Of a DNA stretch of 33,442 nt, positions 19,153 to 33,442 are shown in pieces; position 1 is the stretch's first letter, and the number at the start of each line of letters is the position of its first letter. This DNA comes from a virus, in IMG/VR virus record IMGVR_UViG_3300049424_000009, positions 1 through 33,442 of that record; one strand, written 5' to 3'. The notes under the pieces are model-generated. The model searched no databases. It had not been told where the DNA came from and saw nothing but the letters and a program-made list of their open reading frames with translations. The position numbers and the translations under genes are program-made.

Positions 19153-20439
19153 ATGACATTGCCCGTGAAATATTACGCCAACACCATGCAAGGTGCTCCC
19201 CAACTGACCAACGACTGGGGCTGCATGACCGCGCTGCTTGATGCGGTTCTGGTCACCGGCTTCAACCTCAAGACCATCGCCACTCTGACCAGCGCTGCTG
19301 GTGTGGCCGCAGCCAGCATTCCCGCAGGGCACTTGTATTGGGTGGGTCAGGTCTTGACCATCTCTGGCGCAGACCAAAACGAGTACAACGGCGAGGTGCG
19401 TGTAATTGCTGTGACGACCAGCACTTTCACCTATGCCATCACCGGCACGCCGGTGAGCCCGGCCACTGGGGCGAGCATCACCTCCAAGGTGGCACCCCTG
19501 GGCTGGGAGATTGCTTTTACGGCCACAAACAAGCGCGCTTACCGCAGCAAGAATGTCCTATCCAATCGCCCCTATCTGCGGGTGGATGACAGTTGTGATC
19601 CGGCCTACGCCACCACTTATGCCAAGAAAGCCAAGGTGACCATGGCGCAGGGCATGAGCGATATCGACACCTTTGTTGGGGCACGTGCACCATTCGATCC
19701 CGCAAATCCACACCAAAACGAAGTCGCAACGGGTTCCGGAAATACCGTGGTTGATGGTTGGTACAAGTGGTACTACGCCAGAGCGGGAGGCAATGGCCAC
19801 GACGAATACGGCCCTGCTGTATACAACCGACCATGGGCTGTCGTTGGTGATGATCGTGGTTTCTACATCTTTAACGAGGGTGGAGACTCGGGTGGCTTGG
19901 GTGGCAAGTGCTTCACTGACTTTGAGAGTTATCGCAGCACAGATGGGTTCAACACCATTTTGGGCGCACAAGACACTTATTTGGGCGCAAACGCCTATGC
20001 CAGTCAACTCGATGGTGAGGGTTACCAAAGTTCCGATTGGCGGTCTCGTTTCCCGCGAACGTTGGACGGCACGGGCAAAGTCTTGATGCGCAGCTTTCTG
20101 CAAATTGGTAACAACGTCAATCCATCGTTTACCAGCCTGAACACCAACAATGGTCAGACGACCTCGGGCTACAGCACGGGCATCAGTTGGCCTAACGGCC
20201 CCGACTACAGCATGATCCTGCACCCGACCTTGTTGAGAGAAACGTCGCATTTGCGCGGCAGGATGCCAGGCATGTTCTCGGTCCATAACGACAGTCCCAG
20301 TTTCAACCATCTCGACAACATTTCAGGCGTGGCGGGCTACCCAGGGCGCACTTTTTTACTGCTCAAGGTCGCACATGGGGTGGGTGGCGGCAATTACACC
20401 GCCACTCTTGCTTTTGATATCACTGGCCCATGGTGGTAA
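19153..20439 (+). CDS. Tail-associated protein, unknown family
   Basis: 428 residues; I do not recognise the family. N-terminal ~130 residues: an alpha/beta start (MTLPVKYYANTMQGAPQL), then a small module VGQVLTISGADQNEYNGEVR...TFTYAITGTPVSPATG. Similar modules occur in many tail and cell-surface proteins. The rest is aromatic- and Gly/Asn-rich (DGWYKWYYARAGGNGHDEYG, RGFYIFNEGGDSGG, NPSFTSLNTNNGQTTSGYS), as in exposed beta proteins, and it ends with FDITGPWW. Strong ribosome site AAAGGAAA. The stop is 3 nt before the next gene, so the two are probably co-translated and co-assembled. Confidence 0.55.
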   Translation: MTLPVKYYANTMQGAPQLTNDWGCMTALLDAVLVTGFNLKTIATLTSAAGVAAASIPAGHLYWVGQVLTISGADQNEYNGEVRVIAVTTSTFTYAITGTPVSPATGASITSKVAPLGWEIAFTATNKRAYRSKNVLSNRPYLRVDDSCDPAYATTYAKKAKVTMAQGMSDIDTFVGARAPFDPANPHQNEVATGSGNTVVDGWYKWYYARAGGNGHDEYGPAVYNRPWAVVGDDRGFYIFNEGGDSGGLGGKCFTDFESYRSTDGFNTILGAQDTYLGANAYASQLDGEGYQSSDWRSRFPRTLDGTGKVLMRSFLQIGNNVNPSFTSLNTNNGQTTSGYSTGISWPNGPDYSMILHPTLLRETSHLRGRMPGMFSVHNDSPSFNHLDNISGVAGYPGRTFLLLKVAHGVGGGNYTATLAFDITGPWW

Positions 20440-20442
20440 GCC

Positions 20443-21516
20443 ATGAGTTGGTGGACTACTGTGCCGGGCTTGTTGCCTGTAGCGGCGTTTGACGCAAGCA
20501 GAATAAGCGACGCGCAACTGCTTGATGGCGTGGGGGTTAACCACATCACCGCCACCAGCACTCTGCTGCCCAACGATTTCCAGCTCAAAGGTGTGGCGGG
20601 TAATGGCAATCCGATGGCTTTGAGTACGCCGATTCCCATGCCAGCGACTGGTGTGGTTGCCGGGTTTTGGGCGCCGAAGCGTCGCAATGTGCTGCTGACT
20701 CCGGACTACAACGACACCACCAGCTATGCACTGCACCTGTCGGACAACGGGCAGGGCTGGTATGCCGCAAAAGCCAATGCATCTTCGCCCTACGGCTTGT
20801 ACGGATCCATTGGCACGCGTTACTTTGTGGCGATGGTCACACGAGGATCAGACTCCATTTTGTATGTCGACGGCAATTTGGTGGGCGTGCCAGTCAGCAG
20901 CAGCTACACCATGAGCCAGATAGGTCAGATTGGCTATGGCGCGAACGGGAACGAGTACAACCTCGACGCTGATGAGTATTTCCATGCCCTAGGCATTTGG
21001 ACGGGTGGGGCCACACAGGCTGATGTTCGAGCCCTTGAGGCCGCTGTGCGTTTCGCGTTGGTCGGCGTACCTGCCACCTTCCACGGATTTGGCACCGACC
21101 TGAGCCGCGTAAACACCATCCAAGCGGTGAGTCTGGCGACTCAAGGTCTGGGTAATAACACGGGGCGCATCAACACCGCGCCAATGCAGGCTCTGGATGG
21201 TCTTGGTGTGCGCAGCAAGGCGATCGTGCCAATCGTGGGGAAAAACGACATTTACTTCGGTGGTGTCGGCCAGGTGGTGGGCACCGTCAAAAACTCACCA
21301 GCCACACCAGTGCGGCGGCGCGTTTTGCTGATCGAGGAAGCCTATCGCGCCGTTATTCGTGAGACATGGAGCGAAGCGGCTACCGGTGCCTATTCTTTTG
21401 GCCGGGTCGCCATGAACACCACCTACACCGTGGTGAGCTACGACCACACCCAAGCCTTTCGGGCGGTGGTGGCTGATCGGGTGGTTCCGGAGTTGATGCT
21501 GGAGTACACGTCATGA
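20443..21516 (+). CDS. Tail protein with concanavalin-like domain (candidate receptor-binding)
   Basis: 357 residues. Residues ~50-200 look like a LamG/concanavalin-type jelly roll, as in many laminin-G-like phage proteins: GVVAGFWAPKRR, TTSYALHLSDNGQGWYAAK, RYFVAMVTRGSDSILYVDGN (a typical 'G..LYVDG' strand pair), QIGYGANGNEYNLDADEYFHALGIW. Residues ~270-357 look like a small carboxypeptidase-regulatory-type beta domain (GTVKNSPATPVRRRVLLIE, TGAYSFGRVAMNTTYTVVS). This architecture suggests glycan or surface binding. The stop overlaps the next start as ATGA. Domain calls are from pattern only. Confidence 0.55.
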   Translation: MSWWTTVPGLLPVAAFDASRISDAQLLDGVGVNHITATSTLLPNDFQLKGVAGNGNPMALSTPIPMPATGVVAGFWAPKRRNVLLTPDYNDTTSYALHLSDNGQGWYAAKANASSPYGLYGSIGTRYFVAMVTRGSDSILYVDGNLVGVPVSSSYTMSQIGQIGYGANGNEYNLDADEYFHALGIWTGGATQADVRALEAAVRFALVGVPATFHGFGTDLSRVNTIQAVSLATQGLGNNTGRINTAPMQALDGLGVRSKAIVPIVGKNDIYFGGVGQVVGTVKNSPATPVRRRVLLIEEAYRAVIRETWSEAATGAYSFGRVAMNTTYTVVSYDHTQAFRAVVADRVVPELMLEYTS

Positions 21517-21920
21517 CGCTGGCCATTTCTCCTGCGCACAAGCTGGCGCGACTGACCGGGACTCTTTCGTTTGCGGATGCGGGCCCTCAAACCAGCCGCA
21601 TTCGACTTTACGCAACGACCCAGCCAGTAACCGGTGGCGACCCGGGCGGTGGATTGCTGGTGGAAATCCTGCTGGCCAAACCTTGCGGAGAGATCAATGC
21701 CAGCATGCTGACCCTCAAGCAGTCAGAGCCATCGGGTGACCTGATTCTGGAGACTGGCACTGCGCTTTGGGCACGCTGGATCAACGGCCGTGACGAAGTG
21801 GTGGCCGACGGTTCGGTGTCGGACGCTGCGGGTACCGGAGATTTCAAACTCTCGGGCACCAGCGGCACGGTGCTTTACGCCGGTGCGCGTGCGCTATTGG
21901 GGCAATGCACTTTGACTTGA
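21513..21920 (+). CDS. Small beta-rich tail protein
   Basis: 135 residues, predicted all-beta: ARLTGTLSFADAGPQTSRIR, GLLVEILLAKPCGEINAS, SGDLILETGTALWARWINGR, GDFKLSGTSGTVLYAGARAL. It is probably a compact sandwich. It overlaps the upstream gene by 4 nt (ATGA), which suggests it is co-expressed with the concanavalin-like protein. I know no firm family. It is probably a structural partner of the neighbouring tail proteins. Confidence 0.5.
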   Translation: MTLAISPAHKLARLTGTLSFADAGPQTSRIRLYATTQPVTGGDPGGGLLVEILLAKPCGEINASMLTLKQSEPSGDLILETGTALWARWINGRDEVVADGSVSDAAGTGDFKLSGTSGTVLYAGARALLGQCTLT

Positions 21921-21948
21921 TGTTCTTTGATTTGTGAGGATTCACGGC

Positions 21949-23910
21949 GTGCCAGAAAACTTGGTCTTTGCTGGTACACCGCTCATTGAATCGCTGGTTC
22001 TGGTGTTTGGGGAAGGTGTCACTGACCCGAACGCCAGAATCACTGATCTGGTTTTTGCACAGCCGCCCAAGGTGCATCCGACGCGGTTGGTTTTTGGTGA
22101 CAGTGACACCAACACCCATCCCGACTCGCTGCTCGAAGTGTCCGGGGTGCTGCCAGAACTGGTCGCACGGCTACACCTGGTCATTGGGGTGCCGGTGGCT
22201 TTGCAAGCGGCATTGCCTGATCTGGTCGGCACGGTCGCTGTGAAGTACCAGAGCCAGACGCAACGGCCGATGGTGGCGCAGGTGCAGACCTGGTCGCAGG
22301 TGTCGATGGTCACCGAGTCCGGCTTGACCCAACCACAGCAGCACGCGCAAGCAACCAATGCTGGCGCGCAGGAACAAGCGCAAAACGCTGCGTCCGAGCA
22401 TTTTGGTGTCAGCCCGGGCTATGTTGAGGCAATTCGTTCCAGCCGAGAGGTGGGATCGCAGTTTCAGGATGGCTGCGTAACGCGGTCACGCCTGCAAGCC
22501 AATTGGTCGGATGGCCTGGCTGACCGACGAGTGAATAGCACCAGTTCCTTTCAGGAAGGCCAGCGTGGGCCAACCGTTCGCGCCGTGGGCCGTTTTCAGG
22601 ACGGATTGCATGACAGGCGCGCATGGCTCGAGAACTCTTGGGCTGGCGCAATTCCTCGGGCGCTGGGTTACTCCGGTCACGCTGGTGCTGCCATCCCACT
22701 GAGGAGGTTCCTGCCATCGACCTTTCAGGAGGCTTGGGTACCGCGACCCGGTGTGCATTTGATCCCGGTGACCCCACCCATTGATCCGACGTACTGGGGC
22801 ACGGCCTTGCTGTTTGCCTGTCCGCCACTGGCGGCACCCATGCTGATCTTTGGTGCTCGCCAGTGTGATTTTCCAGAAGAACCGCGAACCTGCGTTGTGA
22901 CCGTTGCGGTCAGAAAGGTGTACTTTGTGATCAATGCTGTCAGTCTGCGCCGGGCATCCAACGGGGTGGAGGTCCCGGTCAACAGTTTGTCCCTGTCTCT
23001 TGATGCATCCTCCTGGGCTTGGGGATTTGATGCCGTACTGCCACACAGTGCGCAAAGTCTGATCGAACCAAACGGCGCTGGCGTGGTGGAACTGCTGGCC
23101 ACTGTGAACGGCACCACTTTTGCAGTCCTTGCTGAAAACATCAGTCGTGAGCGCAGCTTTGGACAGACCAGTATTCGATTGACTGGTCGTGGCAAGAATG
23201 CCGTGTTGGCTGCACCCTATGCGCCGGTGATGACTTTTACCAACTCACAGGCGCGCACGGCACGCCAGTTAATGGATGACGTGTTGACCATCAACGGTGT
23301 GCCTATGGGTTGGAATTTGGACTGGGGTCTGACCGACTGGAATGTGCCAGCCGGAGTGTTTTCGCACCAAGGAACATGGATTGAGGCTTTGAGCGTCATT
23401 GCCGGGGCAGCCGGTGGTTATCTGCTGCCACACCCCAGAGACCAAACGATTCGTGTTCGCCACCGATATCCGGTCGCACCCTGGGAATGGGCCACTGTGA
23501 CACCCAACTTTGTTCTGCCAGTTGATGCCGTGGAAAAAGAGTCCCTGCGCTGGCTGGAAAAGCCATCCTACAACCGGGTGTTTGTCTCGGGTATGGATGC
23601 CGGAGTGCTGGCGCAGGTGACCCGGTCCGGCACCGCTGGTGATTTGCTGGCACCGATGGTGGTGGATGCCCTGATCACTGAGGCGGCAGTTGCCCGTCAG
23701 CGTGGTTTGGCAGTTTTGAGTGACACCGGTCGGCAGATTGAGGTCAGTTTGAATTTGCCTGTGCTGGCTGAAACTGGAATCATTGAGCCCGGTGCATTTG
23801 TTCAGTACCGCGACGGCGGAGTTGACCGCATCGGGCTGGTTCGCTCCACCCAAGTGCAAGCCGGGTTTCCGGAGGTCTGGCAGACCTTGGGAGTGCAGAC
23901 CTATGCATAA
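21949..23910 (+). CDS. Tail-tip hub-like protein
   Basis: GTG at 21949 is chosen because TGAGGA (21935-21940) lies 8 nt upstream; an in-frame GTG at 21934 would place that element inside the gene. 653 residues. N-terminal 90 residues: strand repeats of the form 'LVFG.G...' (LVLVFGEGVTD, PTRLVFGDSDT, RLHLVIGVPV). A middle section (about 145-265) has degenerate repeats around FQDG/FQEG/FQEA, with Trp/Arg-rich spacers. The C-terminal ~370 residues read as a mixed alpha/beta hub domain, including the SQARTARQLMDDVLTINGVP helix region, EALSVIAGAAGGYLLPHPRD (a hub-type motif) and a final beta domain ending VWQTLGVQTYA. This resembles proteins that form the central baseplate/tip of long-tailed phages. 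Position next to the small OB-like protein supports this. Confidence 0.6.
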   Translation: MPENLVFAGTPLIESLVLVFGEGVTDPNARITDLVFAQPPKVHPTRLVFGDSDTNTHPDSLLEVSGVLPELVARLHLVIGVPVALQAALPDLVGTVAVKYQSQTQRPMVAQVQTWSQVSMVTESGLTQPQQHAQATNAGAQEQAQNAASEHFGVSPGYVEAIRSSREVGSQFQDGCVTRSRLQANWSDGLADRRVNSTSSFQEGQRGPTVRAVGRFQDGLHDRRAWLENSWAGAIPRALGYSGHAGAAIPLRRFLPSTFQEAWVPRPGVHLIPVTPPIDPTYWGTALLFACPPLAAPMLIFGARQCDFPEEPRTCVVTVAVRKVYFVINAVSLRRASNGVEVPVNSLSLSLDASSWAWGFDAVLPHSAQSLIEPNGAGVVELLATVNGTTFAVLAENISRERSFGQTSIRLTGRGKNAVLAAPYAPVMTFTNSQARTARQLMDDVLTINGVPMGWNLDWGLTDWNVPAGVFSHQGTWIEALSVIAGAAGGYLLPHPRDQTIRVRHRYPVAPWEWATVTPNFVLPVDAVEKESLRWLEKPSYNRVFVSGMDAGVLAQVTRSGTAGDLLAPMVVDALITEAAVARQRGLAVLSDTGRQIEVSLNLPVLAETGIIEPGAFVQYRDGGVDRIGLVRSTQVQAGFPEVWQTLGVQTYA

Positions 23911-24979: not shown

Positions 24980-25434
24980 TTGCTGTGCCGCAAGCAGCCG
25001 TGGAACTGGCCAAGCGGTTTGAGGGTTTTCACAGGGTGCCGAAAATTGATCCATTGCGCCGAGCCCATCCCTACATCTGTCCTGCGGGATTTTGGACTGT
25101 GGGGTTTGGGCATCTGTGCAAACCAGACCATCCGCCGATCTCTGAGGCTGAAGCTGAGGGCTATTTGGCCCAAGACCTGATGACGGCGCTCACCGCCACG
25201 TTGAGGTATTGCCCAGTGCTGACAACGGAATCTGAATCGAGGTTGGCTGCAATCGTGGATTTCACTTTCAACCTCGGTGCGGGCCGGTTGCAAACATCGA
25301 CGTTGCGGCGGCGAATCAACCAGCGGGACTGGTATGGAGCAGGGCAAGAGCTTAAACGCTGGATTTACGGTGGCGGTAAAGTACTACCAGGACTCGTTAT
25401 GCGCCGAGAAGCTGACTTGGTGCTGCTGCTATGA
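24976..25434 (+). CDS. GH24 phage lysozyme (endolysin)
   Basis: 152 residues; cleaves peptidoglycan at lysis. Catalytic Glu16 lies in AKRFEGF. The strand YICPAGFWTVGFGH (33-46) carries the TVGFGH hallmark. Where T4 lysozyme has Asp, this branch has Cys35 in 'Y.CPAG.WT', a known subtype. A helix block with IVDFTFNLGAGRLQTSTLRRR and ELKRWIYGGGKVLPGLVMRR closes the fold. There is no signal peptide, so export would rely on the holin. The last residues (READLVLLL) end abruptly where the opposing mcrC stop overlaps by 6 nt, so a few residues may have been lost or changed at a junction. No Rz/Rz1 spanin follows. Confidence 0.9.
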   Translation: MIAVPQAAVELAKRFEGFHRVPKIDPLRRAHPYICPAGFWTVGFGHLCKPDHPPISEAEAEGYLAQDLMTALTATLRYCPVLTTESESRLAAIVDFTFNLGAGRLQTSTLRRRINQRDWYGAGQELKRWIYGGGKVLPGLVMRREADLVLLL

Positions 25435-26565
25435 CCCGAGCGATTGCAGTGATGACTCGCATAGCAACAACAACTGTGATCGAATGTCAGCCGGTGAGGC
25501 TGATAAATCCACCGTCGCAAACCGAATATGGTGACCCTGGATCGCCGCTGTTTCGTCGACTGTCTGGCCGATTGCAGGATGCAGCAGCAATCCGCTCGCA
25601 CAATCCGCCAGTGCATCGCCGCGCCCAACCTGAGAACGCAGGTAGGCGTATATCTGGTACACGTAGCCGCTGCGCAGAGATTCCTCGCGGTACCAGCCGC
25701 TTGTCACAATCGATGTGAACTTTGTGTCGATGACGATCCGCCGTCCGGTTGTTGGGTGATCGAGAACAACGTCGGTTCGCATCGTCGGCAGGATATTGTC
25801 GATCCCAGCAGTCTTCTGCTCAATCTGCCAGCCCATCGTGCCTCCACACCGCACACGCCATTCTTGTGGGCTTAACACCACGTCGTAGAACCCTCCCACC
25901 GCGCGCTCGAACAGTCGACGCACCCATATCGCCTCACGATCTGGCAGAGAGAGCACATCCGCTCCTAATCTCTCAGTGGGTAGCGCGAGATCGAAAGCCA
26001 GCTTCGCAGCTGCCATCATGAAGCGGTCGTCTGCATCGTTTCGGCTAAAACGATCGGTACTCATTTGGGCGCGCGATGGTGCCTCACCAGACACGCCCAT
26101 TGCCTTCATACCATTTGCAAGTGAGCGGCAGCGATGAGACAGGTCCTTCCTTCGCACAATTCTTGAAATGGTTTCCAGGGCTGCCCGGACAAAGCGATTT
26201 CGTGGCGTGTCGATGGTCAGTTCGTCAAATCGACACGCCACCAAGCCACGATCCAGCAACTGATTTCGTTCAGTGGTCAGGACATCAATGCGGCCACGCA
26301 CTCGATTGAGCGGGGCATTACGAGAGCGATAGCCGAGACTCAGGCGACGACGCTGCCGTACTTCAACCGCGTGGGCAAGAATCTCGGCGACCAGGTCTGG
26401 CAGATCGTCCGGGCTGTCTTCCAGACCGACCTTGCCTATGCCGCGAGTGCGAAACAGATCTGATGCATATAGCATCAGCAGCCAAAGGTTGCGCACCGGA
26501 ATGCGTCCGATGAACCCCTCGACGCTCGCGGACGAAGTTACAGCCTGTTCTGCGACGGCGCTCAT
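25429..26565 (-). CDS. mcrC: McrC-type restriction nuclease subunit
   Basis: Nuclease subunit that works with the McrB GTPase in modification-dependent restriction. The frame opens at 26625, but the ATG at 26565 overlaps the mcrB stop as TGATG and is chosen, giving 378 residues. The N-terminal part (GFIGRIPVRNLWLLMLYASD) and RGRIDV (90-95) are typical of the family. The PD-(D/E)xK nuclease core is D265 (MRTDVVLD), then D280-T-K282 (IVIDTKF), followed by QIYAYL (304-309). It is the last gene of a four-gene minus-strand operon. Its stop (25431-25429) overlaps the lysozyme 3' end. Confidence 0.9.
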   Translation of the reverse strand: MSAVAEQAVTSSASVEGFIGRIPVRNLWLLMLYASDLFRTRGIGKVGLEDSPDDLPDLVAEILAHAVEVRQRRRLSLGYRSRNAPLNRVRGRIDVLTTERNQLLDRGLVACRFDELTIDTPRNRFVRAALETISRIVRRKDLSHRCRSLANGMKAMGVSGEAPSRAQMSTDRFSRNDADDRFMMAAAKLAFDLALPTERLGADVLSLPDREAIWVRRLFERAVGGFYDVVLSPQEWRVRCGGTMGWQIEQKTAGIDNILPTMRTDVVLDHPTTGRRIVIDTKFTSIVTSGWYREESLRSGYVYQIYAYLRSQVGRGDALADCASGLLLHPAIGQTVDETAAIQGHHIRFATVDLSASPADIRSQLLLLCESSLQSLGS

Positions 26566-28769
26566 CACCAACCCTGCGTTAGCCGTGCAATTGCCTTTTG
26601 TGCCTCGTCGGGCGCGTCGAACCAATATTCATCCAGTAGTGGGCCAATCTCCGTCTCCACGATCTGCTGGAACCACTTCTTCGTATCTCCTGCTTCCAGT
26701 CGATGCGCAGGTGTCACATAGCTGTGACCAATCCGGAACTGTTTGCCAAGACGGGCATCCGCCGAAATCTGGTCATTCAGTTCGGCGATTCTGCGTTCTA
26801 TATCAGCCACACGCGCTGGATCGACTGCACACTCTTTGACCACCCAGTACCGCCAAACTGGACCCAACCTTGGCTCCAGTCCAACGAAGGCAAAGCGTCG
26901 ACGCAGCGCCAGATCGACCAGCGCCAACGATCGGTCGGCGATGTTCATCGTACCGACCACATAGAGATTTTCGGGAATGTGAACCGGACGACGCTTGCCA
27001 TCAGCATCCGGGTAGCAAAGCTCCAGTGCTTCGTTGGGTGTGCGCTTTCCTGCCTCCAAAAGCGTCAACAGCTCGCCAAAAATTTGCGCCGGGTTACCAC
27101 GGTTTATCTCCTCGATCACCACAACAAACTTTGATGACGGCTCTTTGCTGGCCGCCTTTATCGCTTCCATGAATACCCCGTCTGCCAGCGACAACTTGCC
27201 TTCACCAGTTGGTCGCCAGCCTCGGACGAAGTCCTCGTAGGAGAGGTTTGGGTGGAACTGAACTGCGCGGACTTTGCTGTCATCCTTCTGCCCCATTAGC
27301 GCGAACGCCAGCCTCTTCGCCAGCCATGTCTTGCCCGTGCCTGGAGGCCCTTGAAGAATCAGGTTCTTCTTGGTTCGTAGGCGATCCAGCAGAAGATCAA
27401 TTTCGGATCGCTCAAGGAAACATCCTTCCTTGAGGATGTCATCGACCGAGTACGGAACGATAGGCGCAGCAGCTCGAACGGCTTCCTGCGCACCTTCCTC
27501 AGCATTTGCATCGTCGGCAACTGCATCTGTAGTTGTCGTCTCACTGGTGGGGTCCTTGAATACCCATGCTTCAAGTGACAGCTCAGGGTATGAATGAACC
27601 GGATAGGATGCTTCCTGAAAGCGAGGCTCCAGCGCCTCCATCAACGCAAGGTAATCGGTCGAGTTGCAGCGCTTTTTCGGGCCGTGAAGGCCAATCGGTA
27701 CACCTAGCTTCTTGCTAACGTAGACCTGCGAGTTTTGGTCAAGGCTTATAAATGACCAAGGCCTTATCCAGTACAAGCCAAACGTCAGGTTCCATGCAAC
27801 AAATAACCGGCCATTGGCCTTGTCGAACGCCTTCGCAAACTGACCGCGAGCCTCTTCATCATCAGAATCAGCGAACTTGATCGCTGCTGCGAATACGTCC
27901 CACAATGCGTCGATGTGATCCGGGTCACGGCTCTTCTCGAAAGGGAAGAACCATGAATTCTGAAGATTTAACAGTGGAACGCCGTCAAATGTGTTTGGTG
28001 CAGACTCTTCAACCCCGAGAAATTTTCCAAGTTCAGTTGCAATGATCTTTCGGTTGGCATCAGTCAAGCCGCGATTGAATAGCCCCATCGTCGTGAAAGG
28101 ACAGATGTCCTTGACGAAGCCTTTAGTGTCGTCCGCGAACTGGTCCTGCAAGTGTCCAATACCTTCGACGCGCGCCGAGATATCTTTCAGGCCATCAATC
28201 AGTGCTGCACGGTTGTTTCGGTAGGTGAGCAACTTGTCGGCAATGGCCTCGTAAAATTTCGTCCATCTAAATCGGCGCTTGTCCGGTGCTGCCGAACCGA
28301 ATCGTTCCTTCCAGTAAGGGGCGTTCCGGAAGCGGTCGATGTCTTGTGGCTTGCCATCGAAGGTGAAGGCAATCAACCCATCGGTCGTCCAATCGCCAGG
28401 CAGAACGCGCCAGACCGTCCCCCGGTAGGTATAGAAATACCACTCCTGAATCGGCTCGACCTTGGTCCAATCAACTTTGACTCGCTTACCATCGTTCAAG
28501 TTTTCGGTGATCGTGCCGATCGCCTTGATCGCCATCACTGACACAGTTTGTCCACGGTTATCGAAAGGTAGCCCATTCTTGCGGGTGTAAGACGATTTGA
28601 TAGCGATTCGATCACCTGGTCGCATCGATCGAACCACGTCGAGGTGTTTGTCGTCGTATCCATTTTCCCAAATTCCATCATTCAGGAAACGGGACGTTTG
28701 ATCGTCGGTCCCAGCATAAGCGGCGCCGACGAACCAGTTACTGCTGGGCTCTGATGTTGCTATGTCCAT
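26565..28769 (-). CDS. mcrB: McrB-type AAA+ GTPase with long N-terminal extension
   Basis: 734 residues. The AAA+ core lies at ~440-734: Walker A GPPGTGKT (474-481), VVVIEEINRGN (549-559; Walker B with the EINRG signature), VGTMNIADRS (605-614; the GTP-specific McrB motif) and RRRF (623-626). The N-terminal ~460 residues are much longer than in E. coli McrB (465 in total). Residues ~10-145 (NWFVGAAYAG, GDRIAIKSSYTRKNG, VSVMAIKAIGTITEN) read like a PUA/EVE-type modified-base reader. Residues ~160-400 are a second domain with LYWIRPWSFISLDQNSQVYV. The reader role is inference. The start is 3 nt after the res stop, and the stop overlaps mcrC. Confidence 0.88.
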   Translation of the reverse strand: MDIATSEPSSNWFVGAAYAGTDDQTSRFLNDGIWENGYDDKHLDVVRSMRPGDRIAIKSSYTRKNGLPFDNRGQTVSVMAIKAIGTITENLNDGKRVKVDWTKVEPIQEWYFYTYRGTVWRVLPGDWTTDGLIAFTFDGKPQDIDRFRNAPYWKERFGSAAPDKRRFRWTKFYEAIADKLLTYRNNRAALIDGLKDISARVEGIGHLQDQFADDTKGFVKDICPFTTMGLFNRGLTDANRKIIATELGKFLGVEESAPNTFDGVPLLNLQNSWFFPFEKSRDPDHIDALWDVFAAAIKFADSDDEEARGQFAKAFDKANGRLFVAWNLTFGLYWIRPWSFISLDQNSQVYVSKKLGVPIGLHGPKKRCNSTDYLALMEALEPRFQEASYPVHSYPELSLEAWVFKDPTSETTTTDAVADDANAEEGAQEAVRAAAPIVPYSVDDILKEGCFLERSEIDLLLDRLRTKKNLILQGPPGTGKTWLAKRLAFALMGQKDDSKVRAVQFHPNLSYEDFVRGWRPTGEGKLSLADGVFMEAIKAASKEPSSKFVVVIEEINRGNPAQIFGELLTLLEAGKRTPNEALELCYPDADGKRRPVHIPENLYVVGTMNIADRSLALVDLALRRRFAFVGLEPRLGPVWRYWVVKECAVDPARVADIERRIAELNDQISADARLGKQFRIGHSYVTPAHRLEAGDTKKWFQQIVETEIGPLLDEYWFDAPDEAQKAIARLTQGW

Positions 28770-28772
28770 AGT

Positions 28773-31295
28773 TCACACTGATATCGAATTGAAGAGGTCG
28801 TCAAGTTGCGGATTACTTGTGATCAACAGCAATTTTTTGATCGTGGCTGCCTGATTGATATTAAGTCGCACAAAATGCTCACCCCCTGCCGAAGACTGCT
28901 TTCGGATGAGCTGTATTCGCCCAAACAATGCACCGTGCTTTTCAGCAAATTTGGCTAAACCGACGGCTTTTTCGAAGTTGTCACCCAGGCTTGGATCGTG
29001 CGGCTCAAGGATGTCGATGACAAACTCATCATTCACTTTTCTGACCACGACGAGGTCCGGGAACATCGGGCGGACGTCGCCGCCCGTCTCATATGGAATC
29101 TCCAAAGACCACGGCTTGCGGTCTAGATTTCGCAACCAGCCGACCACCTTGGAATTAGCTAACTCTTCCTTCAACACACATGCTTCCCAATTGCCCAACT
29201 CGGCACGGAACTGGCCGTTGCTTTCCACATAGAGGTGGCGTTCCCACAGTGGATCGGTCGGCAGACGCTTGAAATCGATGGACGCAGGTAAATGCCATGG
29301 CACCTCATTGGGCTTGGCAGTTGCTAAGCGCAGCTTCTCGTATTTGATTCGCCGCTGCTCCTTGAGCTTGTGGATGACTTTCTTGTGCTTGTCGTAGAGG
29401 GCGTCGAACGCTGCCTCAGCCAGTGATTCCAATGCGGCCATTTCTGCGGCATTGCGCGCCAAGACAATTGCCTCGACCTTTACTTCCACTGCGTCGCGGT
29501 CAGCGTGGGCGCGCCAATACTCCATTTGCAGGCCATGGCTGAGGGCACGGCCCGCCTCCTCAAACAAGCGGTCGATGTCCACATCGGATGCGTCAATGAG
29601 ATAGTCCGCAGAAGGCTCTGCTACACCCGTGCCGTTGTTAACCGCCATCGTGCGTAAGCCGACCTGGGTGATCGCCTTGGCTGCTGCATCGAACTGGCTT
29701 GCCGCTTTGATCACGGCAATGCGCTGATCCATCCACTCGACGATCTGGCGTTTGGCCGCATCCCAGGTATGCTCGTCGATCTCGTCGATGGTCAAGCTGC
29801 GTGAGATGGCCATGTAACGACGCAGGGGGCTTTGTGCGCGGGCCGCATTCACTCGGTAGGTCACCACTTCATCCAGCGCGGTGAATATGTCGTCGGTGCC
29901 GTCACGGCGCTTCAGGATCACTAAGTTGCGGCTGGAACCCGTTTCGGCAGGCGGCACATCTTCTGCGTTGTGCAACGAAGCCACCACGCTTTCCACCGCA
30001 CCCGTATCGAAATACGGCAAAAATAGATGCACGTCGTTCAAGGCGGCATCTTTCTCAATACGACGCGCCAACGGCGTGCGCACCATCCGGCCCAGCAACT
30101 GCGCGATGTAGGTATGGTCTTCCGCACGACGGAAAGACATCATTACTTCCGCGCGCGGGCAATCCCAGCCGGTCGACAGACTGGTCTTGAAAAACACAAC
30201 GCCGATATTCTTGTCGGCATCGATGCGTGATGCCTCCACCTTTCGAACACGGCGCCCACCTACGTCCAGGTCACCCGTGTCATGCATGGCGTGCGTCACT
30301 TCGCCTTCGTTCAGACGCCGATTAATAGCGCTCTCGATCACTGTCAGGGCCGCGCCCAGGTCGGTCTTGGTGAGCTGCCGATCACTGCCGTTCTCCACCT
30401 GTACCACCAGGACCGGCCAGACGGTTTGCTCTTTCTCGTCCATGCAATAGGCGCGCCAAGCCTGTGTCATTTGTCCCCACCGGCGCGCAGCCTCTTCCAG
30501 CAAGGCCATCTCGGCGGTTGTGGCCGCCTCAGGGTGATGGATCAGGATACGATCTTTCAGAAGGCCGGATTTGCGCACTTCTTCAGCCGGAACCGCCACC
30601 TTGTGCGTAGTCACTGTGTGTTCAGCATGGGCAATCAGGTCCAGAAAGCGCTTGGGCGTTGCCGATACCCCAATGACCAGAGGCATCTTCACCAGCCCCA
30701 CTTCCGGGTAACCCAGCAGGAAGCGCTGCATCAATGTTTGGGCCGCCTGCGCGCCCTTGCCCGAGGTCATGCCCCTGTGCGCCTCGTCAATGACTACGTA
30801 GAAGCGGTCGGGAATAACCCGTGCCGTATTGGTCAACGTTTCCCAAATCAGATGCTCCCGGCCATCACCCAGGTTGGTCAGTGGCTGATTGATGGCCAGC
30901 TTTTGCGTGTTAATGAAGTAGATGCGTCCACCATCCAGGCGCGGCGCGTCAAAATGGGCATCGATGTTGATGAGCTGGTTAACCCGGTACACCTTGTCAG
31001 ACTTGCTCTCGATCTTGAGTTTGGTCTGCTCATTCAGTTCGGGCATGTCCGACACCCATAGGATCACTGCATCCGGCTGTGGCGCCCAGTCAAGTGGCCA
31101 TGCTAGTTGATCGTCAGGCTCATCCAAAATCGCCTCGAACAGCGCCGTCATCATGATGGTCTTGCCACTCCCCGTGGCTGCCGAAAAGGCCACGACATGC
31201 TGGTCGTCCGACGACACTGCTTTGCGAGCCTTTACCAATGCCTTGCGTAAATCGTTCAGCGCATCTTTCTGAAAATCAAACAATGTGACCTTCAT
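28773..31295 (-). CDS. Type III-like Res helicase-nuclease
   Basis: 840 residues from the ATG at 31295, which overlaps the upstream methyltransferase stop as ATGA (the frame has a GTG two codons earlier). Superfamily 2 helicase: Walker A ATGSGKT (40-46), VIDEAH (168-173), GVSATP (209-214) and QLLGRMVR (motif VI). A long middle helical region leads to a C-terminal restriction-nuclease-like domain: MFPDLVVV (PD at 746-747), then VIDILEPHD. The expected (D/E)xK is E764-P-H766 here, so a Lys is replaced by His, possibly a family trait. Type III Res enzymes cut DNA after ATP-driven communication with Mod. Overlap with both neighbours indicates one operon. Confidence 0.85.
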   Translation of the reverse strand: MKVTLFDFQKDALNDLRKALVKARKAVSSDDQHVVAFSAATGSGKTIMMTALFEAILDEPDDQLAWPLDWAPQPDAVILWVSDMPELNEQTKLKIESKSDKVYRVNQLINIDAHFDAPRLDGGRIYFINTQKLAINQPLTNLGDGREHLIWETLTNTARVIPDRFYVVIDEAHRGMTSGKGAQAAQTLMQRFLLGYPEVGLVKMPLVIGVSATPKRFLDLIAHAEHTVTTHKVAVPAEEVRKSGLLKDRILIHHPEAATTAEMALLEEAARRWGQMTQAWRAYCMDEKEQTVWPVLVVQVENGSDRQLTKTDLGAALTVIESAINRRLNEGEVTHAMHDTGDLDVGGRRVRKVEASRIDADKNIGVVFFKTSLSTGWDCPRAEVMMSFRRAEDHTYIAQLLGRMVRTPLARRIEKDAALNDVHLFLPYFDTGAVESVVASLHNAEDVPPAETGSSRNLVILKRRDGTDDIFTALDEVVTYRVNAARAQSPLRRYMAISRSLTIDEIDEHTWDAAKRQIVEWMDQRIAVIKAASQFDAAAKAITQVGLRTMAVNNGTGVAEPSADYLIDASDVDIDRLFEEAGRALSHGLQMEYWRAHADRDAVEVKVEAIVLARNAAEMAALESLAEAAFDALYDKHKKVIHKLKEQRRIKYEKLRLATAKPNEVPWHLPASIDFKRLPTDPLWERHLYVESNGQFRAELGNWEACVLKEELANSKVVGWLRNLDRKPWSLEIPYETGGDVRPMFPDLVVVRKVNDEFVIDILEPHDPSLGDNFEKAVGLAKFAEKHGALFGRIQLIRKQSSAGGEHFVRLNINQAATIKKLLLITSNPQLDDLFNSISV

Positions 31296-33340
31296 GCCCA
31301 CGCTCCCTGTCTTTGACCGGCAGCGCGGTCCTGGTTTTTGTTGATCATGAAATTGAGCAGGTAATCGCGGTAGAGCTGCACCACTTGCAGGCCGGGGTTG
31401 GCCTTGCCCGCCACCGCGCGTACGTCCTGCGCCATGGTTTTAAAAGACTCGTCCGCATCGGTGACGATGAACACTTGCGACAAGCTGGTGCGGCCGTCCA
31501 GCGTTTTCAGTAAACGGCCCATGCGAACTTCATCCAACAGCACCACGAAGTTGTTGCCCTCGGGCGCCAACAGGGCGGGTTCGGACTCGCCGCGCTTCAA
31601 ATCCACTCTTGGACCCACGGCACCCGCCTTGAGCCACAGCAGCGGCAGAATTTCGCGGAAGGCGCGGCGCAGCGAAACGCGCTCCTTCTCCAGAAAGTCC
31701 AGCTTGAAGTAGGCCAGGTTGGCGGCAAAACCTTCGCTCATCGGACGCTTATCTTCTTCCTGCATCAAGAGCGGCCCGAGCAGTTCCACCACCAGGGCTT
31801 TCAGCTGATCAAACACGCGCTTGGTAGGCGTGACGATATAGAAGTCTGTGATGTGCTCCTGCCCATCCAGTGCTTCCAGCCAGTCCTCGGCGGCGCCAGG
31901 GTCGAACAGTACGCTGCTTTTGTGATCCTCCGACACGATGAAGGGGCACGCGTCTTTTACCAGCGTTTGCGGCAGGCCGTCAATCAGTGCCACCACCTGT
32001 TTTTTCTTTGGCAGTGTGTCGAGCGTTGCCGGATCGACAAAGCCGATCTGCGTGAAGTTGCGTGCCTTTTCACGTTCCACCTGCTTGCCGGTCAGGTATT
32101 CTCCGGACAGCACCGAACTGTCGTCACGGCGGCCAAGGATGGTGTATTTGCTGCGCGGCCAGGTCACCGATCGGCAGATGCCTTGCGCTTCCCACTCCGC
32201 GTCACCTGGTTGCTGGCCACTAGCACTCAGAGCGGCCGCTTCCTCTGCGGACACCTCATTGTTAGTCACCAGGATGCATCGACGCTGACCGTCATCGGCT
32301 GCGTTTAGCAGATTTACAGCATTCAGAGTGGTGCCGCTGCCGGCGAAGAAGTCGACGACCAATGCGTTCGGCTTGTCCTCAAGGTAAAACCGAAGTGTGT
32401 CTCGTACAGCGTAAAGGCTCTTGGGGAACGGAAATCTACGGTCGGGAAGGATATCCCCGAGCAATCGGGAGCCATATTGCGTGGCGTCATGACTTGCAAT
32501 GCGCCACTGGCTACCGGGAATCGCAGCCACGAAGCTTGCATCGCTATCTTCAACGATGATTGACCCGTCAGCGGCACGCCCACTTTCTTGGAACTCGCCC
32601 CTTTGAATCTTAGCGTACTCTCCGTCTTTCAGGATGTAAATAACAAATCCACGTTTTTCATTGCCACCGACTCGAACTCGACCAAGTGCCATGCGCTCCT
32701 TGAACGTGGCTGGTGACCATTGCCAATTGCCTTCACTTCTATTTTTCCTGATTGGCAAAAGTGCCACCAACCCTGGTATTTGTTCTGCGACCTGCTGCCC
32801 AATCGGTAGTGCAGCGCCAACCTTTTCAATTGTTCGTTTTATCGGATCAATATAAATCGGGTAAAAGCATCCCGGTGAGTGGCTTCTTTCGGCATTCGTC
32901 CCCGACCGTCGAAGTAAATCCCAACGAACATTTCCCGTGTGCGTTCGTCCTTTCCCGGAAACCCATTCTCGACCGAGACGAAGTCGTCCTGGCGCGGCAG
33001 AGCCAAGCATCACCACGAAAATATATTCATCACTCCGGCCAAATCCACCAACCCTCGCGACGCTAGCAGGATTGATCATGGTGCTGATCATCTGTATCCG
33101 TGCTTCTGGGAATCCCTGCTCTAGCAACATCCCGAGATGCAGGTACTCCTTCTCATCAATCGTGACGATCAAAACACCGGTGTCCGGCTTGAGTAGTTGC
33201 TTGGCTAGCTTCAGGCGCTTTTCCATGAACGCCAACCACTTGCTGTGCCTCCAACCATCGTTGCTATCCACGTAATCGTTGTTGTATTTCCAGTCGCGCG
33301 CGCCGGTGTTGTAGGGTGGGTCGATGTAGATGCAGTCCAC
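31292..33340 (-). CDS. Mod-like adenine-specific DNA methyltransferase (5' end damaged or incomplete)
   Basis: Beta-class amino-methyltransferase of the kind paired with Res-like helicases. DPPY (7-10 from the GTG at 33340) comes before the FFAGSGTT SAM motif (331-338); the target-recognition part lies between. Family blocks include ARDWKYNNDYVDS, VLIVTIDEKEYLHLGMLLEQ, RRFPFPKSLYAV and VTNNEVSAEE. The GTG has no reason to be a real start: the same frame is open further upstream to a TGA at 33401-33403, and DPPY normally follows 30 to over 150 N-terminal residues. The N-terminal region is therefore off-window, out of frame or lost. The protein would lack proper SAM-binding support if it truly began here. 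Stop overlaps res (ATGA). Confidence 0.75.
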   Translation of the reverse strand: MDCIYIDPPYNTGARDWKYNNDYVDSNDGWRHSKWLAFMEKRLKLAKQLLKPDTGVLIVTIDEKEYLHLGMLLEQGFPEARIQMISTMINPASVARVGGFGRSDEYIFVVMLGSAAPGRLRLGREWVSGKGRTHTGNVRWDLLRRSGTNAERSHSPGCFYPIYIDPIKRTIEKVGAALPIGQQVAEQIPGLVALLPIRKNRSEGNWQWSPATFKERMALGRVRVGGNEKRGFVIYILKDGEYAKIQRGEFQESGRAADGSIIVEDSDASFVAAIPGSQWRIASHDATQYGSRLLGDILPDRRFPFPKSLYAVRDTLRFYLEDKPNALVVDFFAGSGTTLNAVNLLNAADDGQRRCILVTNNEVSAEEAAALSASGQQPGDAEWEAQGICRSVTWPRSKYTILGRRDDSSVLSGEYLTGKQVEREKARNFTQIGFVDPATLDTLPKKKQVVALIDGLPQTLVKDACPFIVSEDHKSSVLFDPGAAEDWLEALDGQEHITDFYIVTPTKRVFDQLKALVVELLGPLLMQEEDKRPMSEGFAANLAYFKLDFLEKERVSLRRAFREILPLLWLKAGAVGPRVDLKRGESEPALLAPEGNNFVVLLDEVRMGRLLKTLDGRTSLSQVFIVTDADESFKTMAQDVRAVAGKANPGLQVVQLYRDYLLNFMINKNQDRAAGQRQGAWA

Positions 33341-33442
33341 CTGAGCGGCATACAGGTAATCGGCCGTTTTCAGGCTAGTTGTCGCATTTATTTTGGATAG
33401 TCAGGCTGTTTTTCGTAAGTTGTTTTGCTCCATCGGTTTGGG
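33341..33442 (-). pseudogene. Disrupted 5' segment of the methyltransferase gene
   Basis: Directly upstream of DPPY the Mod frame reads LSKINATTSLKTADYLYAAQ back to an in-frame TGA (33401-33403). Another frame, from 33440, reads NSLTIQNKCDN and stops at TAG (33377-33375). One extra base (T33377), or a short deletion, would join it to SLKTADYLY and give a more normal '..CDN.SLK' entry to the methyltransferase. A short ATG ORF (MEQNNLRKTA) also ends at the TGA. Whether this is mutation, sequencing error or frameshifting cannot be told here. Confidence 0.35.

Follow-up and report, generated by a model that had tools for sequence, protein, structure and literature searches.

An IS3-family insertion sequence as the probable cause of a truncated type III methyltransferase gene at the edge of a phage contig

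The window analysed here is an entire IMG/VR virus record of 33,442 bases, at whose right end the gene of a type III methyltransferase (mod) is found without its 5' part. The evidence strongly favors an explanation in which an IS3-family insertion sequence (IS) interrupts the 5' part of mod, the foreign 82 nt at the contig tip being the right end of that element. The truncation of mod is real and its cause appears plain, an insertion being an ordinary event; there is neither a frameshift to chase in the raw reads nor a lethal restriction enzyme devoid of Mod to explain. The surrounding region is somewhat more interesting than the insertion itself, because in related phages this site is occupied by a wide variety of defence genes.

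The plus strand of the window carries lambda-type late genes (terminase, portal, protease, tail and endolysin), and the right part of the minus strand carries the McrC, McrB-like, Res and Mod genes, with the Mod frame heading towards the right contig end. The relevant features are the following:

33361..33442, minus strand: right (3') end of an IS3-family insertion sequence, very probably (88-93% identity to L128, L129 and L122; L128 and L129 diverge from the window at 33361)
33401..33442, minus strand: putative last 13 codons of the IS transposase (OrfB), PKPMEQNNLRKTA, plus stop (alignment with the tails of L128, L129 and L132)
33361..33385, minus strand: probable right inverted repeat of the IS, GCGACAACTAGCCTGAAAACGGCCG (position, and core GCGACAACT..CCG as in the right ends of Polaromonas and Caballeronia IS3 elements)
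31292..33360, minus strand: remainder of the type III methyltransferase gene mod, without about the first 150 codons (Pfam N6_N4_Mtase; PADLOC MTase_III, 2.6e-147; homologues)
28773..31301, minus strand: res, full-length type III restriction helicase/nuclease subunit (Pfam ResIII; 842 aa)
26565..28769, minus strand: gene for a McrB-like AAA protein (AAA_5, 3.2e-30; NCBIfam McrB model, 249 bits, under the cut-off of 637)
25429..26625, minus strand: McrC gene (NCBIfam PRK09736 McrC, 450 bits, over the cut-off of 338)

A second virus record, IMGVR_UViG_3300049423_000004 (L166), is 100% identical to positions 20001-22519 of the window and ends there, so that mod is not covered by it.

The N-terminal region of Mod

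An earlier note on this DNA had claimed that the DPPY motif lies seven residues after the only usable start and that the protein has no N-terminal region, and both statements were borne out. The sole ATG, GTG or TTG start listed for the Mod frame is the GTG at 33340-33338, and DPPY, the catalytic motif IV, is present at 33322-33311, from residue 7 of the ORF; a sequence resembling the AdoMet motif, FAGSGTT, is found farther along the mod remainder. The comparison of the N-terminus with intact homologues that the note had suggested proved to be the right test. A protein search with Mod yielded 120 homologous loci (80 from genomes and 40 viral), of which 119 were judged, L015 being excluded as it is cut by its own contig edge. 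At least 91 open codons precede the VDCIYIDPPY stretch in 118 of them (median 160), and the only homologues with fewer than 100 are L112 (33) and L117 (91). An (A/G)(D/E)N motif upstream of DPPY was recovered by a motif search in 97/119 homologues, and the 22 misses, once printed, show it by eye. In agreement with this, the best PADLOC type III methyltransferase model places residue 1 of the window ORF at profile position 162 of 709. Some 150 N-terminal residues of a complete Mod reading frame are absent, and the window copy is a disrupted member of the type III family. The idea that Mod homologues naturally start near DPPY, so that nothing would be missing, can appeal to the formal ability of GTG 33340 to start translation, but it is in effect refuted for this family by the open upstream codons of the homologues and by the profile position.

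The junction at position 33361 and the relatives of the foreign DNA

The nature of the missing part became apparent from an ungapped comparison of the window DNA with 12 close mod homologues. Identity amounts to 54-59 of 60 positions at 33340-33281 and 14-20 of 22 at 33362-33341, and to only 11-15 of 80 at 33442-33363 in all 12 cases, where equal base frequencies would give 20; the homology thus breaks off sharply at 33361/33362 in 12/12. Likewise, when the last 80 nt were aligned with the 400 nt upstream in the homologues, the best local alignment was equalled or beaten by 15-92 of 200 shuffles at the four loci concerned. These results bear directly on the earlier proposal of a frame-broken 5' end, in which an otherwise normal mod would have suffered a one-base frameshift, or a sequencing error, near 33377. 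The two marks on which the proposal was built do exist: the in-frame TGA is present (33403-33401, minus strand), and the alternative frame 33440-33378 is open for 21 codons, down to a TAG, its peptide ..LTIQNKCDN being faintly like the homologous ..LIEADNYHAL. The joining of both frames by a single change near 33377 fails, however, since the upstream DNA is not Mod-like. A change of one base would keep the DNA alike in some frame, whereas here the likeness just ends, which argues against a frameshift; moreover, these last 80 nt match IS ends at 88-93% identity. The DNA comparison with the 12 homologues leaves this reading with practically no probability. Beyond about 33361 the DNA corresponds to the 3' end of an IS3-family element, with nothing Mod-like in it, and Mod would have lost its first 150 or so residues by insertion instead. 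The TGA would be where translation of the IS transposase stops, and chance accounts for the alternative frame.

The assignment to a mobile element derives from the presence of the same end elsewhere. The last ~82 nt of the window match three other genomes at 88-93% identity (as measured for L128, L129 and L122). A search of 399 genomes from the family to which G001, carrying the Rhodoferax homologue, belongs gave a single match, G353 (93% over 75 nt, E 2.6e-25), and a draw of 399 genomes from the order returned G353 alone again. Among 103 genomes of the genus of G353, three match, namely G353, G407 and G450, the last with two contig starts (L128 and L129). The window, L128 and L129 have common DNA up to ...AAAACGGCCG, followed by three different sequences; such common DNA, running through ...GCGACAACTAGCCTGAAAACGGCCG into differing flanks, is the signature of the end of a mobile element. 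The match stops at the same base in all three; L128 and L129 are contig starts and the window is a contig end, both G450 contigs starting at the same place. In two further copies, L122 (G353) and L127 (G407), the agreement with the window ends a few bases short of the terminus, and these may be decayed. Base 33361 (G) may be part of the IS or of its target.

The IS end was absent from all six genomes (6/6) with a close mod homologue; viral contigs scanned for exact matches to it (two patterns) and to a mod 30-mer gave no other record, and the bare 93-nt end found weak short matches at most (best E 0.7), or none, in plasmids and E. coli. No full-length copy closely similar to the window IS was found in these searches, the nearest named match being a Polaromonas plasmid (72% over 103 nt, E 0.002, with L128 as the query).

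In this plasmid the matched DNA is the 3' terminal part of an unannotated ORF that has an integrase core and scores weakly with the IS3 model (51 bits against a cut-off of 160). The frame preceding the TGA probably encodes the conserved C-terminal tail of an IS3 transposase, 13 codons and the stop being contained in the window, and the OrfB tails align: each is followed by a stop codon, the window ending in ..PKPMEQNNLRKTA, L128 and L129 in ..PKSTEQHNLRKAA, and the Polaromonas locus L132 in ..PEIKEPQHTQKTA. The OrfB of L137 reaches 188 bits with the NCBIfam transpos_IS3 model (cut-off 160), contains rve domains, and is followed by a right end of the same spacing. Counted from the first base of the stop, the ..CCG terminus is 42-43 nt away in the window, L128, L132, L134, L135, L137 and the Caballeronia copies. 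The right terminus is common to five Caballeronia copies with five different flanks, and four of these copies also share the left end. The core of the right end recurs in inverted form at the left end of both L136 and L137, and the same scan did not recover it in L134 and L135. A protein search of nine genomes with the Polaromonas transposase tail gave one match only, a more distant copy. Altogether, the window end has in common with IS3-family elements of Burkholderiales (Polaromonas plasmids pH1NP1, pH8NP2 and pW11NP2, and plasmid p2 of Caballeronia sp. Lep1P3) a tail that aligns with the C-terminus of OrfB, with its stop codon, the 42-43 nt to the terminus, the GCGACAACT core and the ...CCG end; it differs from the Polaromonas and Caballeronia elements in that DNA identity beyond the core is modest, the window element being known from 82 nt.

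Other elements were considered as the source of the 80 nt. The loci of G353 and G407 are full of elements that we take, in part, to be of the IS21, IS66 or IS5/IS1478-like types, and these were discarded on the grounds that the matching DNA ends in a terminus, and encodes a transposase tail, of its own. Also rejected was the transposase adjoining the IS end in G407; it has a second copy in G407 without the IS end and was taken as a different element. At L123 and L130 (G353 and G407), pieces of several other insertion sequences lie crowded beside a sigma-factor-like gene.

These data can be integrated in a model in which the IS would have inserted about 150 codons into mod, where the homologues encode the D of LLDYLY, and just before the codons for YLY..VDCIYIDPPY. 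Transposase and mod would lie in the same orientation, the last transposase codons being followed by the stop TGA 33403-33401, the right terminal repeat and the mod remainder; the remainder of the IS, with its left end, OrfA and any target duplication, would lie beyond the contig end, as would the beginning of mod. Short-read assembly halts at repeats, and the most likely reason for the contig to end after 82 bases of the element is that the latter occurs in more than one copy and was impassable to the assembler. There is a general trap in this, in that a repeated insertion sequence shows itself at a contig tip as a truncated gene together with a stray stop codon.

Two variations on these events deserve comment. 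The foreign DNA sits at the very tip of the contig, and contigs that end in a repeat are easily extended falsely, so an IS end from elsewhere in the sample might have been joined to an intact mod by the assembler. Such a chimera is improbable: the junction coincides to the base with the terminus of the element, and two independent contigs show the same, whereas a random join would more often fall inside it, and no long word is common to the IS end and the mod homologues at the junction. The second variant accepts the IS and adds a deletion, the 5' part of mod being lost so that none of it would be found beyond the element. Insertion sequences often cause adjacent deletions and the left side lies outside the contig; the window itself is neutral on this matter, but a simple insertion needs fewer events, and we consider the deletion unlikely, albeit less so than the chimera. 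In the portions of the literature that were searched, no report of such an insertion was found.

Consequences for the type III and McrBC modules

The transposase translation ends before the junction and the only listed later start is GTG 33340, so any Mod product would lack the region before motif IV. Judging from the sequence, the Mod of the sequenced molecule has very probably lost its function, as the earlier note had supposed, and a type III module with an inactive Mod would neither methylate nor restrict.

The neighbouring res gene follows mod in most homologous loci and in the window it overlaps the mod stop by 10 bases. Res is 842 aa long, compared to 832-841 aa in 10 homologues, and it contains the helicase motifs ATGSGKT and DEAH, Walker A being conserved in 10/10 homologues (one as GAGKT) and DEAH in 10/10. 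Its C-terminal nuclease-like stretch (residues ~746-800) presents PDL...D(I/V)LEPH in all 11 sequences, including that of the window, and the lysine usual in PD-(D/E)xK is absent from its expected place. The system resembles the EcoP1I and EcoP15I type III enzymes (Mod plus Res) in its adjacent mod and res genes, DPPY methyltransferase and ResIII helicase, and differs from them in its interrupted mod and in a Res with a conserved FPDL...DILEPH stretch and no obvious PD-(D/E)xK lysine.

The same note had reasoned that Res and McrBC would be left unbalanced in the absence of self-methylation. McrBC acts on modified DNA and is, hence, not restrained by self-methylation. For classical type III systems the argument does not follow either, because Res needs Mod: passages on EcoP1 and EcoP15 state that Mod recognises the site and directs and stabilises Res, and that EcoP1 res has its own promoter inside mod (PMC3874151), and a further account mentions that purification of unmodified Res without Mod was attempted and failed (PMC4005696). 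By analogy, the loss of Mod would silence the type III system rather than unleash Res, and the concern about toxicity finds no support in these passages. Expression of res driven by the IS is likewise unsupported, consensus scans having shown no outward promoter at the junction and no promoter in 25300-33442, a result of little weight.

With regard to McrBC, the McrC model is passed over its cut-off and a McrB-like AAA protein adjoins it, as in type IV restriction. In contrast to this arrangement, the flanks available for the 120 homologous loci contain no McrB or McrC match next to the type III genes, so McrBC looks like a module separate from the type III genes. It may still be active if transcribed.

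Defence genes behind the endolysin

A tentative proposal can be made for the surroundings of mod, namely that the gene lies in an exchange site for defence genes behind the endolysin of lambda-like phages, a site undescribed in those parts of the literature that were searched. Phages would exchange its cargo among themselves and insertion sequences would erode it, and here the type III system would be silenced with the adjoining McrBC intact. Comparable hotspots have been described for P2-like phages and for P4-like satellites (PMC9122126). In related phages, a defence hotspot behind the endolysin is possible, in a stretch that may be phage or flanking host DNA.

Tail-gene relatives in viral contigs provided 31 loci that were aligned with the window. 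Synteny ends at the end of the endolysin gene: 25/31 loci reach 25332-25415 and none (0/31) passes 25415, the other six stopping earlier, most of them at their own ends. Some of the loci are near duplicates (L143, L144 and L164; L156 and L162). The ORFs beyond the endolysin were listed in 20/31 loci, and 20 proteins were picked by eye, a choice that was not random. Of these, all 10 that were compared with PADLOC matched its defence models (CBASS cyclase, SspB, SspC, type I and III restriction, TIR/SEFIR, and Orf5/HEC-06 type), and 7 of the 10 compared with Pfam matched its families, including McrC, BrxL, D12 methyltransferase and N6 methylase; one of the Pfam-matched proteins is a sigma-54 regulator and not a defence gene. 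Defence genes beyond the endolysin are seen in the window at 25415-33442 (McrBC and type III) and at L140, L141, L144, L148, L154, L158, L160, L167 and L170.
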